Origin: a virus
IMG/VR virus record: IMGVR_UViG_3300043449_001623
Span: 1 to 30,280 of that record
Strand: one strand, 5' to 3'
Length of the DNA stretch: 30,280 nt
This document shows positions 3,007 to 30,280 of the stretch, piece after piece (position 1 is the first letter of the stretch; each line of letters begins with the position of its first letter). A model generated the notes under the pieces. It was not told where the DNA came from. It searched no databases and worked only from the letters and a program-made list of their open reading frames with translations. The position numbers were made by a program, and so were the translations under genes.

Positions 3007-3012
3007 GGATCT

Positions 3013-3024
3013 GCACTATAGTGC
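3013..3024. promoter_or_regulatory. Palindrome GCACTATAGTGC containing a -10-like TATAGT
   Basis: A perfect 12-bp palindrome lies between the divergent genes. TATAGT reads on both strands. On the minus strand, TTGCGG stands 15 bases further upstream. The same palindrome, extended to 14 bp, recurs at 27659-27672, the only other copy I noticed, in front of another gene. The pattern fits an operator overlapping a promoter. Confidence 0.6.
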
Positions 3025-3026
3025 GG

Positions 3027-26934: not shown

Positions 26935-27135
26935 ATTTTAGCCTTTTCGCGTCAAATTCGACGGGTAGCGCGAGAAAGTCGAGGTGCGAGAGGTCGGGGT
27001 AGGTAAACCCTCAGACACACGACAACCCTGCCCGCGAGGCAAGGCTGACTTGGACAGGCCTGCGCTATCGTCCGAGCGCATCGGAGGACGCGGTCCCCAG
27101 GCACCATGCCGAGGACCGCACGCTCTAAGGTGAGT
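26935..27135. other. Non-coding gap upstream of terS, with a long hairpin
   Basis: No supported gene lies in these 201 bases. At 27090-27119 a bulged hairpin stands out: GCGGTCC pairs with GGACCGC, and inside it GGCA-cca-TGCC. A smaller stem is at about 27028-27047 (CCTGCC/GGCAAGG). Just before terS the sequence turns A/T-rich. The region could hold the late promoter, a terminator after the 74-aa gene, or the packaging-initiation site recognised by TerS. Confidence 0.55.
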
Positions 27136-27360: not shown

Positions 27361-27623
27361 GCTGCCTCCTTCGGATACAGGACCCACCGTCGTCCAGGGT
27401 TGTGCGCTCCCATCTGCACGGCATCGTACGCCGTGTGCGTCGTGACTTTTCGCATCGCACGGCCCACTGACATCGCGAGCCCTCGCTCGGTCAATCCTCG
27501 TGGCTCAATCAGCCCGGAGGATGAAGCCAGCGAAACGAGGTCCGTGCTTGACATCGGAGCCCCTCCATTCGCATCCAGCCATGCTGCGATGAACCTTTGA
27601 GCTATCCTCGCTTCCCTTTCCAT
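27357..27623 (-). CDS. Hypothetical protein, possibly winged-helix, 88 aa
   Basis: Function is not recognised. Helices EREARIAQRFIAAWLDAN and STDLVSLASSSGLI, then RGLAMSVGRAMRKVTTH and a closing NPGRRWVLYP strand suggest a compact winged-helix-like DNA-binding fold similar to phage transcription or origin proteins. The ATG at 27621-27623 has a strong TAGGAGGGC site. Its promoter region overlaps the TGCACTATAGTGCA palindrome and the edge of the iteron array, so it may be autoregulated or controlled with replication. The winged-helix idea comes from pattern only. Confidence 0.65.
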   Translation of the reverse strand: MEREARIAQRFIAAWLDANGGAPMSSTDLVSLASSSGLIEPRGLTERGLAMSVGRAMRKVTTHTAYDAVQMGAHNPGRRWVLYPKEAA

Positions 27624-27644: not shown

Positions 27645-27673
27645 CTAGTACCACAAGCTGCACTATAGTGCAA
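27645..27673 (-). promoter_or_regulatory. Candidate promoter for the 88-aa gene
   Basis: Minus strand TTGCAC (27668-27673) and TACTAG (27645-27650) are 17 bases apart, 22 bases before the ATG. An alternative -10, TATAGT, lies inside the palindrome. The arrangement resembles the candidate promoter at 2316-2344 (TTGCAG-N17-TAGTAG). Confidence 0.35.
27659..27672. promoter_or_regulatory. Palindrome TGCACTATAGTGCA, operator candidate
   Basis: A perfect 14-bp palindrome whose central 12 bases equal the palindrome at 3013-3024 in the divergent control region. It overlaps both candidate -10/-35 elements of the downstream gene. Confidence 0.6.
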
Positions 27674-27684
27674 GTGGTCACTAT

Positions 27685-27720
27685 GGGGACGGAACGGGGG
27701 ACGGAACGTGGGACGGGTGA
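27685..27720. repeat. Left iteron array, three 12-bp units
   Basis: Two identical copies of GGGGACGGAACG are followed by a degenerate third, TGGGACGGGTGA. The period is exactly 12 bp. Mirror partner of the right array at 27902-27937. Confidence 0.9.
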
Positions 27721-27750
27721 GTTCCTCTACGATGTAGGCCAGCACGCGAG

Positions 27751-27865
27751 GGGGACGGGAGGACGGGAGAATCCGAGTTCATCCACGCTTATACATGTAT
27801 GAGAGACAACTGACCTTCCCTCTCGTATAGAGAGGATACCCAACTTCTCCCGTCCTCCCGTCCCC
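27751..27865. repeat. Long inverted repeat, 21-bp perfect arms
   Basis: Arms are 27751-27771 and 27845-27865, perfectly complementary, 73 bases apart. Inside lie a 10-bp palindrome ATACATGTAT (27791-27800) and a 6-bp stem CCTCTC/GAGAGG (27819-27835). Each arm carries GGGGACGGGAG and an 8-bp-shifted partial repeat of it. It could extrude as a cruciform or fold as RNA. Confidence 0.9.
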
Positions 27866-27901
27866 TTGCAGTGCTGATGCGGATCGTAGAACTTCGGATG
27901 C

Positions 27902-27937
27902 GTCCCCCAACCTGTCCCCCAACCTGTCCCCTAGCTA
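27902..27937. repeat. Right iteron array, three 12-bp units
   Basis: Two identical copies of GTCCCCCAACCT are followed by a degenerate third, GTCCCCTAGCTA, whose last bases contain the helicase stop codon. Orientation is opposite to the left array. Confidence 0.9.
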
Positions 27938-30253
27938 CCAAACCCTCGGCATCTCACGAACGTTAGCCTCCGGTGCATCACGTAGAGACAGGCCGATCCA
28001 GCGCCGCCCAAACTTCCGCGACGGGTCCTGTTTGTAGCCGCGGTCCGTCAGGGCACGCGTGAGCCACTTGTGGCTGCGGGGCCTCTCGCCGTTCGCCTGG
28101 CTCCACTCCGCGAAGGCCTTGTAAATGGTCGTGTTCGTTGCCACGCCATGCGGGACACACTTCTCGGAGATGAAGTCGGCCAGCATGTCCATGTCGCTGC
28201 GGTAGTCGTCCGTCGCGTCTCGCACGGCTGCAGGCAGCGCGAGGCCTTCCTGTGCCCAAAGCCTCGCGCCCTCGACGCACCACGCGAGGATGGCGTCCCG
28301 CTCGGCCTCGAGCTTCTTCCCGAGGTCGCGGTCCTTCTCATGGTCCTCGATAGTCTGCGTGAACGGCACCAGCCGAATGCGGCGCCAGATACCGTGGTCG
28401 GTGCCGCGGATGACAGGGCGATGGTTCGTCGCCATGAGGACCTTGAAGGTCGGCGTGAAGGTGAAGAACTCCGCGCGCATGAAGCGCGCCTCCATCGCCG
28501 CGTCACCCGTCATCTCCTTGATGAGACTCTCATCCAGCTGCGCGCCCTGCTCGGGCTCGGAGCAGGTCACCAGACGGTGGCCACGCAGCGCCGCGACGTC
28601 GTTGGGGATGCCGCCGCTGCGGTCGCGCATGAAGGTCTCGGCGCGCGAGTGCTTGGCGTAGTCCCCAAGCACAGTGCGGACGGTGTCGAGGAACGTGCTC
28701 TTACCGTTCGATCCATTGCCGTACAGGATGAAGAGGCATTGCTCGCGCGTCGAGCCCGTGAGGCAGTAGCCCAGCACGCGCTGGATGAAGCCGACCATCT
28801 CCTGGTCATGCCCCATGATGCGGCTCAGGAAGGCGAGCCACGTGGGGCATCCCGACGAGGACAAGCCAGCGCCCGCCATCTTCGTATGGAGCGCCTCGCG
28901 CTCATGCGGGCGCACCGTCCCCCAGCGCAGGTCCACGATGCCCGCCTCTGTATTCAGGGCCCACTCGTCAGCATCCAGCGCGTTCTGCTCGATAGCGACG
29001 TCACCACGCGCGACCTGAACTGCCGAGCGGAGATGCTGGCTCATCTCGGAGGCGGAAGCCCACTTGCTCCACGTCCGCGCTTCCTCCTTGAGGACGGCGA
29101 TAGCCCGAGCCATCGACGGAGGAGGCTGCGCTCCTCCCGCAAGGACCGCCTGACGGAGACGCTCCTTCAGGTCGTCAGCGTGCGCGACCACGTCGAGGGC
29201 GACCTCGCGCGACAGGTTGTCCACGCGACGACGCGTGTCCGAGCTCCACCGCTTGCCATCCCAGACAAGGAAGCCGTCGCCGGGGAGAGAGCCACACCAG
29301 CGGACGTCGGGCCCGAAGCGGTCGACGAGGCGCGCTGCGTTGCCCACGTCGGTCGGACGGTAAGGCGTCGCCGGGATGGCCGTCGGTGCATCCGAGGGAC
29401 GACGCGGGCTCTTCTCGCCGCGGTCGAGGCCATCCTTGACGGTGCGGCGGACCTCCTGTTCCGGCTTGCCAGCGTCCAGCCCAGCGGACACCAGCGCGAA
29501 CTCCGCCGCATGACGATCGAGGCATCCGCCGCCCACCAGCTCGCCGACGCGGCAGCTCTCGCGGTAGATCGCATCGTGCCGACTGCCCTGGCATGTGCGA
29601 ACCCGTTCGCACGCGGCGTCGAGGGCCTCGGCTGCGGTCGCTGCGTCTCCCGGCGCCACCGTCACGGGCGCGGGAGCTGCAGCCGGCAGCGGGAGCGGCT
29701 TAGGCTCCTCTCGCTTCGCGACCATGGCGACAAGCCACGCGGGGGCCGACGCGGCTTCGCGAGCACCCACCTCCCACTGATAGACCCTGCCCGACGGGTG
29801 AATGCTCGGCGGCACGACGACGTACCCGCCATCCGCGCGGATATCGAGCCCCGTTCGCTGCCCGTGCACCTTGATCCGCGCGCGGTTGTTCAGCTCCACG
29901 CCTTCGGGCATGCGGAAGTAATAGTGCGCGCCCGACCCCGTCGTCGCGGTCAGCGTCGCGGGCAGCGCGCCGTGCTGGGCTACGAGCTGCTCGAGGGCCT
30001 CCGGGCCTGTAAGCCCGCCATCCTTGGGCGGTGCCGCGTCCACGTCGAGGACGAACACGCCCGAGGCCGCCCCCGTGGCGAGACCGATGTTGTAGGCCTT
30101 GTCGCCCCACAGATCGGCGACGACGCTCGCGTCGTTGCTCGCCGCCTTGAAGCCGTTGCTCGTCGCGGGGATCTTCTGCCTCTCCTGAAGCGGGAAGACC
30201 GACCAACCGTGACGCGCGTACCTGAGGGCGTAGTCGCCCATCGTGAAGAGCAT
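27935..30253 (-). CDS. Primase-polymerase / SF3 (P4-type) helicase, 772 aa
   Basis: N-terminal prim-pol domain: a YARHGWSVFPL opening, FVLDVDA with D70/D72 as metal ligands, GSGAHYYF near 106-113, GLDIRADGGYVVVPPSIH near 135-152. A Pro/Ala linker (about 175-205) leads to a D5_N-like segment and an SF3 ATPase with Walker A GNGSNGKST at 512-520, a CSEPEQGAQLDE Walker B region at 564-575 and the polar sensor KVLMATNHRP at 604-613, then the arginine segment IWRRIRLVPF. The last 100 residues look like a winged-helix DNA-binding end. Such enzymes open origins and prime. The ATG at 30251-30253 has no Shine-Dalgarno; an in-frame ATG lies four codons later. Confidence 0.92.
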   Translation of the reverse strand: MLFTMGDYALRYARHGWSVFPLQERQKIPATSNGFKAASNDASVVADLWGDKAYNIGLATGAASGVFVLDVDAAPPKDGGLTGPEALEQLVAQHGALPATLTATTGSGAHYYFRMPEGVELNNRARIKVHGQRTGLDIRADGGYVVVPPSIHPSGRVYQWEVGAREAASAPAWLVAMVAKREEPKPLPLPAAAPAPVTVAPGDAATAAEALDAACERVRTCQGSRHDAIYRESCRVGELVGGGCLDRHAAEFALVSAGLDAGKPEQEVRRTVKDGLDRGEKSPRRPSDAPTAIPATPYRPTDVGNAARLVDRFGPDVRWCGSLPGDGFLVWDGKRWSSDTRRRVDNLSREVALDVVAHADDLKERLRQAVLAGGAQPPPSMARAIAVLKEEARTWSKWASASEMSQHLRSAVQVARGDVAIEQNALDADEWALNTEAGIVDLRWGTVRPHEREALHTKMAGAGLSSSGCPTWLAFLSRIMGHDQEMVGFIQRVLGYCLTGSTREQCLFILYGNGSNGKSTFLDTVRTVLGDYAKHSRAETFMRDRSGGIPNDVAALRGHRLVTCSEPEQGAQLDESLIKEMTGDAAMEARFMRAEFFTFTPTFKVLMATNHRPVIRGTDHGIWRRIRLVPFTQTIEDHEKDRDLGKKLEAERDAILAWCVEGARLWAQEGLALPAAVRDATDDYRSDMDMLADFISEKCVPHGVATNTTIYKAFAEWSQANGERPRSHKWLTRALTDRGYKQDPSRKFGRRWIGLSLRDAPEANVREMPRVW

Positions 30254-30280
30254 GATGTACCCGTGGACCGCCGTGGGGGA
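30154..30280. repeat. Terminal direct repeat, right copy (circle overlap)
   Basis: Identical to 1-127. Joining the two copies makes one continuous helicase gene with the 101-343 region upstream. Confidence 0.95.

Follow-up and report, generated by a model that had tools for sequence, protein, structure and literature searches.

Replication modules adjoining primase-helicase genes

In PICI satellites, a symmetric two-sided array around a core lies immediately 3' of the rep gene and acts as the replication origin (PMC6092414). Such repeats are bound by SaPI Rep and SCCmec Cch2 via the C-terminal domain (PMC7581432). SaPI Reps bind the iterons directly downstream of their own gene, apparently as two hexamers. 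The alpha protein of P4 is a helicase-primase whose C-terminal winged-helix origin-binding domain binds repeats (PMC4234260, PMC10516667). In plasmid pRN1, a stem-loop located 3' of rep is required and, together with the replication operon, sufficient, and the plasmid is held to be without iteron structure (PMC4234260). In Lactobacillus casei phage A2 (AJ251789), whose origin is known here from the deposited annotation alone, the rep_origin feature starts at the end of a primase gene homologous to rep of the present study. The satellite PLE was set aside as a model, since its initiator is RepA_N.

The element analyzed here was found in a window that is the whole virus record of 30,280 bases. 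Its position, its conservation in six Rep relatives, the deposited A2 origin, and the PICI and pRN1 precedents support well the origin function proposed in a preliminary description: the element is very probably the phage replication origin, i.e., the cis half of a rep-ori cassette on which Rep would load as two opposed helicases. The same description regarded the origin as being of an undescribed type; it belongs, however, with the PICI/SaPI, A2, and pRN1 rep-ori modules and represents a known kind whose layout is here nested and unusually rigid. New are this nested geometry, the CTACGAT motif, and the composition of the required pRN1 stem from tandem GGAC boxes. The following features were distinguished:

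26984..26992, minus strand: deduced cohesive end of the packaged genome, 9 nt, CTCTCGCAC, outside the origin
27685..27714, plus strand: outer box triplet of the distal side (GGGGAC, GGGGAC, TGGGAC), 12-bp period
27727..27733, plus strand: CTACGAT motif, distal copy
27751..27771, plus strand: inner double box, other arm of the inverted repeat, GGGGACGGGAGGACGGGAGAA
27772..27844, no strand assigned: A/T-richer core between the inner arms
27845..27865, minus strand: inner double box with an 8-bp period, one arm of the 21-bp inverted repeat
27883..27889, minus strand: CTACGAT motif, rep-side copy (ATCGTAG on the plus strand), on the axis of the boxes
27902..27931, minus strand: outer box triplet of the rep side, GGGGAC ending at 27931, 27919, and 27907, 12-bp period
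27935..30253, minus strand: Rep (Prim-Pol, D5_N, and SF3-type helicase, TIGR01613 primase_Cterm), presumed initiator
27938..28216, minus strand: predicted C-terminal winged-helix domain of Rep (AF2 model, pLDDT 76), presumed origin-binding domain

Structure of the box array

The element contained ten boxes with a GGAC core, five per side, on one dyad axis (coordinate sum 55616). On the plus strand, GGAC started at 27687, 27699, 27711, 27753, and 27761, and the opposite GTCC ended at 27929, 27917, 27905, 27863, and 27855, with box steps of 12, 12, 42, and 8 bp per side. The eight boxes listed in the preliminary description were found at their given coordinates, every pair summing to 55616, as was the 21-bp inverted repeat (27751–27771 and 27845–27865) on the shared axis; its count of four boxes per side, however, missed a fifth, because the inner arm GGGGACGGGAGGACGGGAGAA contains two boxes 8 bp apart (on the other strand, CTCCCGTC followed by CTCCCGTC). 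The arrangement, named there mirror symmetry, is dyad (inverted-repeat) symmetry and not that of a mirror repeat. Conservation of box position with changing spacers, also noted there, applied to the outer boxes, whose spacers differ between the arms (GGAACG versus AGGTTG), but not to the inner pair, in which all 21 bp are identical, spacer included; gene conversion between the arms could account for this identity. The inner arms enclose a loop of 73 nt. The G+C content was 0.47 in the core, 0.57 in the element, and about 0.67 in the genome, i.e., the core was A/T-richer, as described, only to a modest degree. This segment (27772–27844) is presumed to be the region of melting and priming.

A genome scan for any 6-mer in tandem (8–13 bp) plus its inverted tandem nearby revealed 16 arrays, all 16 of which were inside the element; of 60 shuffled whole genomes, only 4 contained any such array. 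The axis of the element also marked the best ungapped dyad genome-wide (71/124 bp versus no more than 61/124 bp in 15 shuffles).

The element has features in common with the PICI/SaPI origins (SaPIbov1, SaPI5, and EcCICFT073) and that of Cch2, which are located immediately 3' of rep, and the SaPI5 initiator, like Rep, belongs to the D5_N/Primase_Cterm family and has a primase domain. It differs from them in its occurrence in a tailed phage, in the ten boxes on one exact axis, in the nested 12-bp and 8-bp periods, and in the additional CTACGAT motif. Its anatomy fits the SaPI model of iteron binding by two hexamers. The origin of phage A2 is similar in its inner CTCCCGTN doublet with an 8-bp period (the right inner arm is CTCCCGTT followed by CTCCCGT) and in its outer pairs, which have a 12-bp period and are inverted across an A/T-rich core. 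It differs in a core that is far more A/T-rich (G+C 0.17), in fewer boxes, in longer outer-to-inner gaps, and in having no CTACGAT motif.

Position of the element in the genome

The element is situated between the stop codon of the 772-aa Rep and an 88-aa ORF starting at 27623, and all genes identified in the window are on the minus strand. The last box ends at 27931 and the rep stop codon is at 27935–27937, in agreement with the description of the element as adjoining the helicase gene; the origin is thus immediately 3' of the initiator gene. The window encodes a large terminase, an endolysin, and a protein with a distant match to a major head protein, and therefore belongs to a phage and not to a satellite of the PICI type, which is without structural genes of its own and helper-dependent. 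An exact 127-bp terminal repeat (1–127 and 30154–30280) inside the rep gene region is most likely an assembler overlap of a circular map, with a genome of about 30,153 bp. The GC skew across the genome, a check suggested in the preliminary description, had no informative switch. A blastn search with the element against named phages gave no match at the DNA level.

Iteron arrays may serve copy control or segregation besides initiation, and the element lies upstream of a small operon with the 88-aa ORF. That Rep would bind it for control or partition (by handcuffing, autoregulation, or as a segregation array) and not for initiation is nevertheless unlikely, as the symmetric two-sided array immediately 3' of rep is the organization of PICI origins (PMC6092414), the 6-mer array scan of the 30-kb genome revealed no second array that could be the origin, and partition genes were not found among the scanned proteins.

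The intergenic position and an adjoining palindrome, TGCACTATAGTGCA, could also indicate a transcriptional operator, an attenuator, or a structured RNA. This is very unlikely: no promoter-like or terminator-like site was found, and the array is conserved with Rep and not with the downstream genes. Matches to Rfam failed by a wide margin to reach any gathering score and differed little between the strands, and a structured RNA was rejected on these grounds; sub-threshold matches of similar strength on both strands are obtained with any long inverted repeat. The palindrome itself was present at 27659–27672 and 3012–3025 (one mismatch at 3012), with 0.01 copies expected, in each case immediately upstream of the start of a minus-strand ORF (27623 and 3006), and its core was also found in seven terminase relatives (L059–L065). 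It resembles an operator or promoter element of a phage, and its half CACTATAG recalls the T7 promoter core.

Primase-helicase Rep

The Rep protein was assigned to Pfam families PF09250 (3.6e-45), PF08706 (5.2e-21), and PF19263 (DUF5906; 1.3e-10), and to TIGR01613, the P4 family of phage/plasmid primases (4.3e-90, 301.7 bits at a cut-off of 108.7). It thus has the D5_N/Primase_Cterm composition of the PICI/SaPI rep-ori initiators. A model of residues 290–772 (pLDDT 88.5) matched the hexameric D5-type helicases AsfvPrimPol and mpox E5. When the C-terminal 93 residues were modelled separately, the best fold matches were the RFX DNA-binding domains (Z 8.0–8.7) and the AsfvPrimPol tail (Z 7.9), with archaeal Cdc6/Orc1 lower; these middling values (Z 8 to 8.7) support, but do not prove, the predicted winged helix at the Rep C-terminus. 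The resemblance of the AsfvPrimPol tail to the P4 origin-binding domain and RFX was reported independently (PMC10516667). The P4 domain was absent among the fold matches listed, which carries no weight. As a helicase-primase with a C-terminal winged helix (predicted in the case of Rep), P4 alpha is similar to Rep, whereas its primase is of the bacterial type (Toprim) and that of Rep is a Prim-Pol of the archaeo-eukaryotic type (PF09250).

Conservation of the array in Rep relatives

Rep as a single-protein query of viral and genome contigs gave no match, and a query with a Rep alignment identified six contigs (L205–L210) encoding Rep with 59–67% identity. In all six, the boxes began at or just after the rep stop codon. 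Contig L207 ended too early to show both sides, and the geometry could be read whole in the other five; all of these contained outer boxes 11–12 bp apart, CTACGAT, inner boxes 8–9 bp apart, and a core, with the same elements inverted on the opposite side. The place and period of the rep-side outer triplet were alike in the five, the outer-to-inner gap on this side was 43 bp, and both sides carried CTACGAT (with a single-base change in one L206 copy). Boxes and CTACGAT had a common axis in four of the five, whereas in L206 two of the four box pairs were one base off the axis of the motif. The dyad z of the relatives was 6.0–9.6 versus at most 5.3 in shuffles. The box flanks varied among the genomes (GCGGACAC, TGGGACAC, ACGGACAC, TGGGACAG, and CCGGACAC), while the GGAC core was invariant and spacing and axis were kept. 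Thus, conservation of box spacing, which the preliminary description had proposed to look for in related phages, was found, with changing letters. As to a DnaA box, only TATGGATAAGTCC in the cores of L209 and L210 resembled one, being one base away from it on the other strand; it was absent from the window, and a conserved DnaA box was rejected.

It was also considered whether the origin is structure-based, i.e., whether Rep reads the shape of a hairpin or cruciform formed by extrusion of the 21-bp arms, the arm letters being of importance for pairing alone. The inner arms paired perfectly or nearly so despite differing letters in the window (21 bp), L205 (17 bp), and L210 (16 bp), and the pRN1 stem-loop is needed (PMC4234260), with shape recognition having been proposed for this plasmid. 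However, the loops are long (73 nt in the window and 84–85 nt in L205, L206, and L210), spacer mismatches break the inner stem in L208 and L209, and L016 and L188, two relatives with a different helicase, have boxes without a long stem. An invariant GGAC core would be unexpected if pairing alone mattered, and the outer boxes share the axis though their spacers are unpaired. The constant features are GGAC, CTACGAT, and the spacing, for which reason boxes read by a protein are preferred and a hairpin is considered improbable; the cruciform, included in the preliminary description, is not a requirement, as several relatives break the stem and keep the boxes.

The pRN1 arms themselves consist of tandem GGAC boxes: the 21-nt stem TTATGTCCATAGTGTCCAACT (L287, 185–205) is composed of two GTCC boxes 9 bp apart, and the pRN2 stem (L289, 61–80) contains tandem GGAC boxes at the same distance; in pIT3, a direct array was found. 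The pRN1 Rep is homologous to the window Rep (4e-13), including the C-terminus, and in L205 the inner arm, TGTCCGTAGTGTCCG, has almost the same letters as that of pRN1. Judging from the stem letters, these data suggest that pRN1 may have an iteron structure, located in its stem. Both plasmids are similar to the element in the origin just after rep, in a Rep with Prim-Pol, SF3, and winged-helix parts, and in inverted arms with tandem GGAC boxes 9 bp apart (loop of 57–58 nt), but differ in the archaeal host, in having no outer boxes, and in having been described as stem-loops without iterons. The element has in common with the pRN1 type a long stem-loop directly 3' of a Prim-Pol/SF3/winged-helix rep; conservation of stem pairing rather than box sequence was not found, since the GGAC core and CTACGAT are conserved and the stem is broken in L208, L209, L188, and L016. 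The direction of the boxes relative to rep was opposite in pRN1 and pRN2, which may bear on plasmid compatibility.

Genome ends and exchange of the replication module

The location of the element between the replication genes and the terminase could point to packaging (cos or pac recognition), as allowed for in the preliminary description. Most terminase-relative contigs (L003–L045) started at one common base, 171 bp upstream of the terminase; both ends of contig G027 carried the corresponding 9 nt, directly followed by sequencing-adapter sequence, in L036 an adapter immediately preceded the first genomic base, and in G032 the 9 nt were repeated at both ends, as expected for end-filled 9-nt 5' cohesive ends. 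The corresponding site of the window (26984–26992) is 693 bp from the nearest box, i.e., the element does not coincide with the physical genome ends. Furthermore, the boxes track the Rep type, and a terminase about 90% identical combined with another helicase was accompanied by other boxes, which makes a packaging role extremely unlikely. It should be noted that physical genome ends are readable from metagenomic contigs (the starts of L003–L045 and the ends of L187 and L188) by a common start base, a 9-nt overlap at both ends, and a joined adapter, and that the 9-nt letters vary by subgroup (CTCTCGCAC, CTCGTTAGC, CGCGTTAGC, and CTCCTTCGC).

Contigs with a terminase approximately 80–94% identical often carried a separate Prim-Pol and a VapE-like helicase. 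In four of the six VapE-type relatives examined (L012, L016, L187, L188, L048, and L186), strong inverted arrays with boxes GTGTCCAC or GTGTCCGAC were found between the helicase stop codon and the genome end, the array being weak in one and not significant in the other of the remaining two (L186 and L048). As a different helicase comes with different boxes among the terminase relatives, the array goes with the helicase rather than with the packaging genes. The element DNA compared with the terminase relatives gave only the neighbouring palindrome and chance matches. Thus, the fused Prim-Pol/D5 Rep was swapped for a split Prim-Pol and VapE-like helicase, mostly together with its own boxes, which represents an exchange of rep-ori cassettes.

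Arrays in the wider Rep family

Of 58 non-redundant viral contigs with a Rep of this family, 20 had two-sided tandem inverted arrays after rep (0.04 expected from shuffles), the other 38 failing the strict array test, and the frequency of arrays after rep was 28/77 versus 1/2506 in windows elsewhere in the same loci. Among named family members, Shady and a Thermaerobacter plasmid had no obvious array by eye, and an exact search of viral contigs for GGGGAC-N6-GGGGAC-N6-KGGGAC gave no two-sided copy adjoining Rep among the matches listed. In L266 (5400–5700), after rep of another virus, an extended two-sided array of GGCGCA boxes with extra outer copies was found (22 array matches), possibly another nested layout.

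Putative mechanism of initiation and its significance

According to the proposed mechanism, Rep, whose gene ends 3 bp away, would bind the GGAC boxes via its C-terminal winged helix. As the boxes of one side are oriented oppositely to those of the other, two Rep hexamers facing each other would assemble across the core, the SF3-type motor would melt it, and the Prim-Pol domains would prime both strands, with bidirectional theta replication of the circularised genome as the outcome. The strict geometry (outer period of 11–12 bp, gap of 42–43 bp, inner period of 8–9 bp, and a common axis) may reflect the packing of subunits on DNA, and CTACGAT is probably the site of a second protein or a contact of another Rep domain.

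It may tentatively be proposed, with somewhat less than even confidence, that archaeal plasmids, bacterial phages, and satellites share one origin plan. In this plan, two opposed pairs of tandem GGAC-like boxes, spaced by 8–9 bp, would be read by a winged-helix tail that is homologous among the Prim-Pol/D5 helicases; the geometry would be fixed, and the letters would drift along with the protein that reads them. The pRN1 stem-loop would then act as a pair of inverted iterons instead of being recognised as a hairpin, and in the present phage group the outer boxes of 12-bp period, together with CTACGAT, would be an added, undescribed layer for loading or control.

The element supplies this uncultured phage group with an origin that is precisely placed and open to experiment, and it shows that complete phages, too, have the two-sided iteron origin that was reported as a peculiarity of PICI satellites. 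Because the geometry is fixed and the letters change, Rep tails and their boxes form naturally occurring pairs for the study of DNA reading by self-loading helicases. The element also bears on the pRN1 question, namely, whether hairpin or iterons are recognised and whether replication is of the theta or rolling-circle type.
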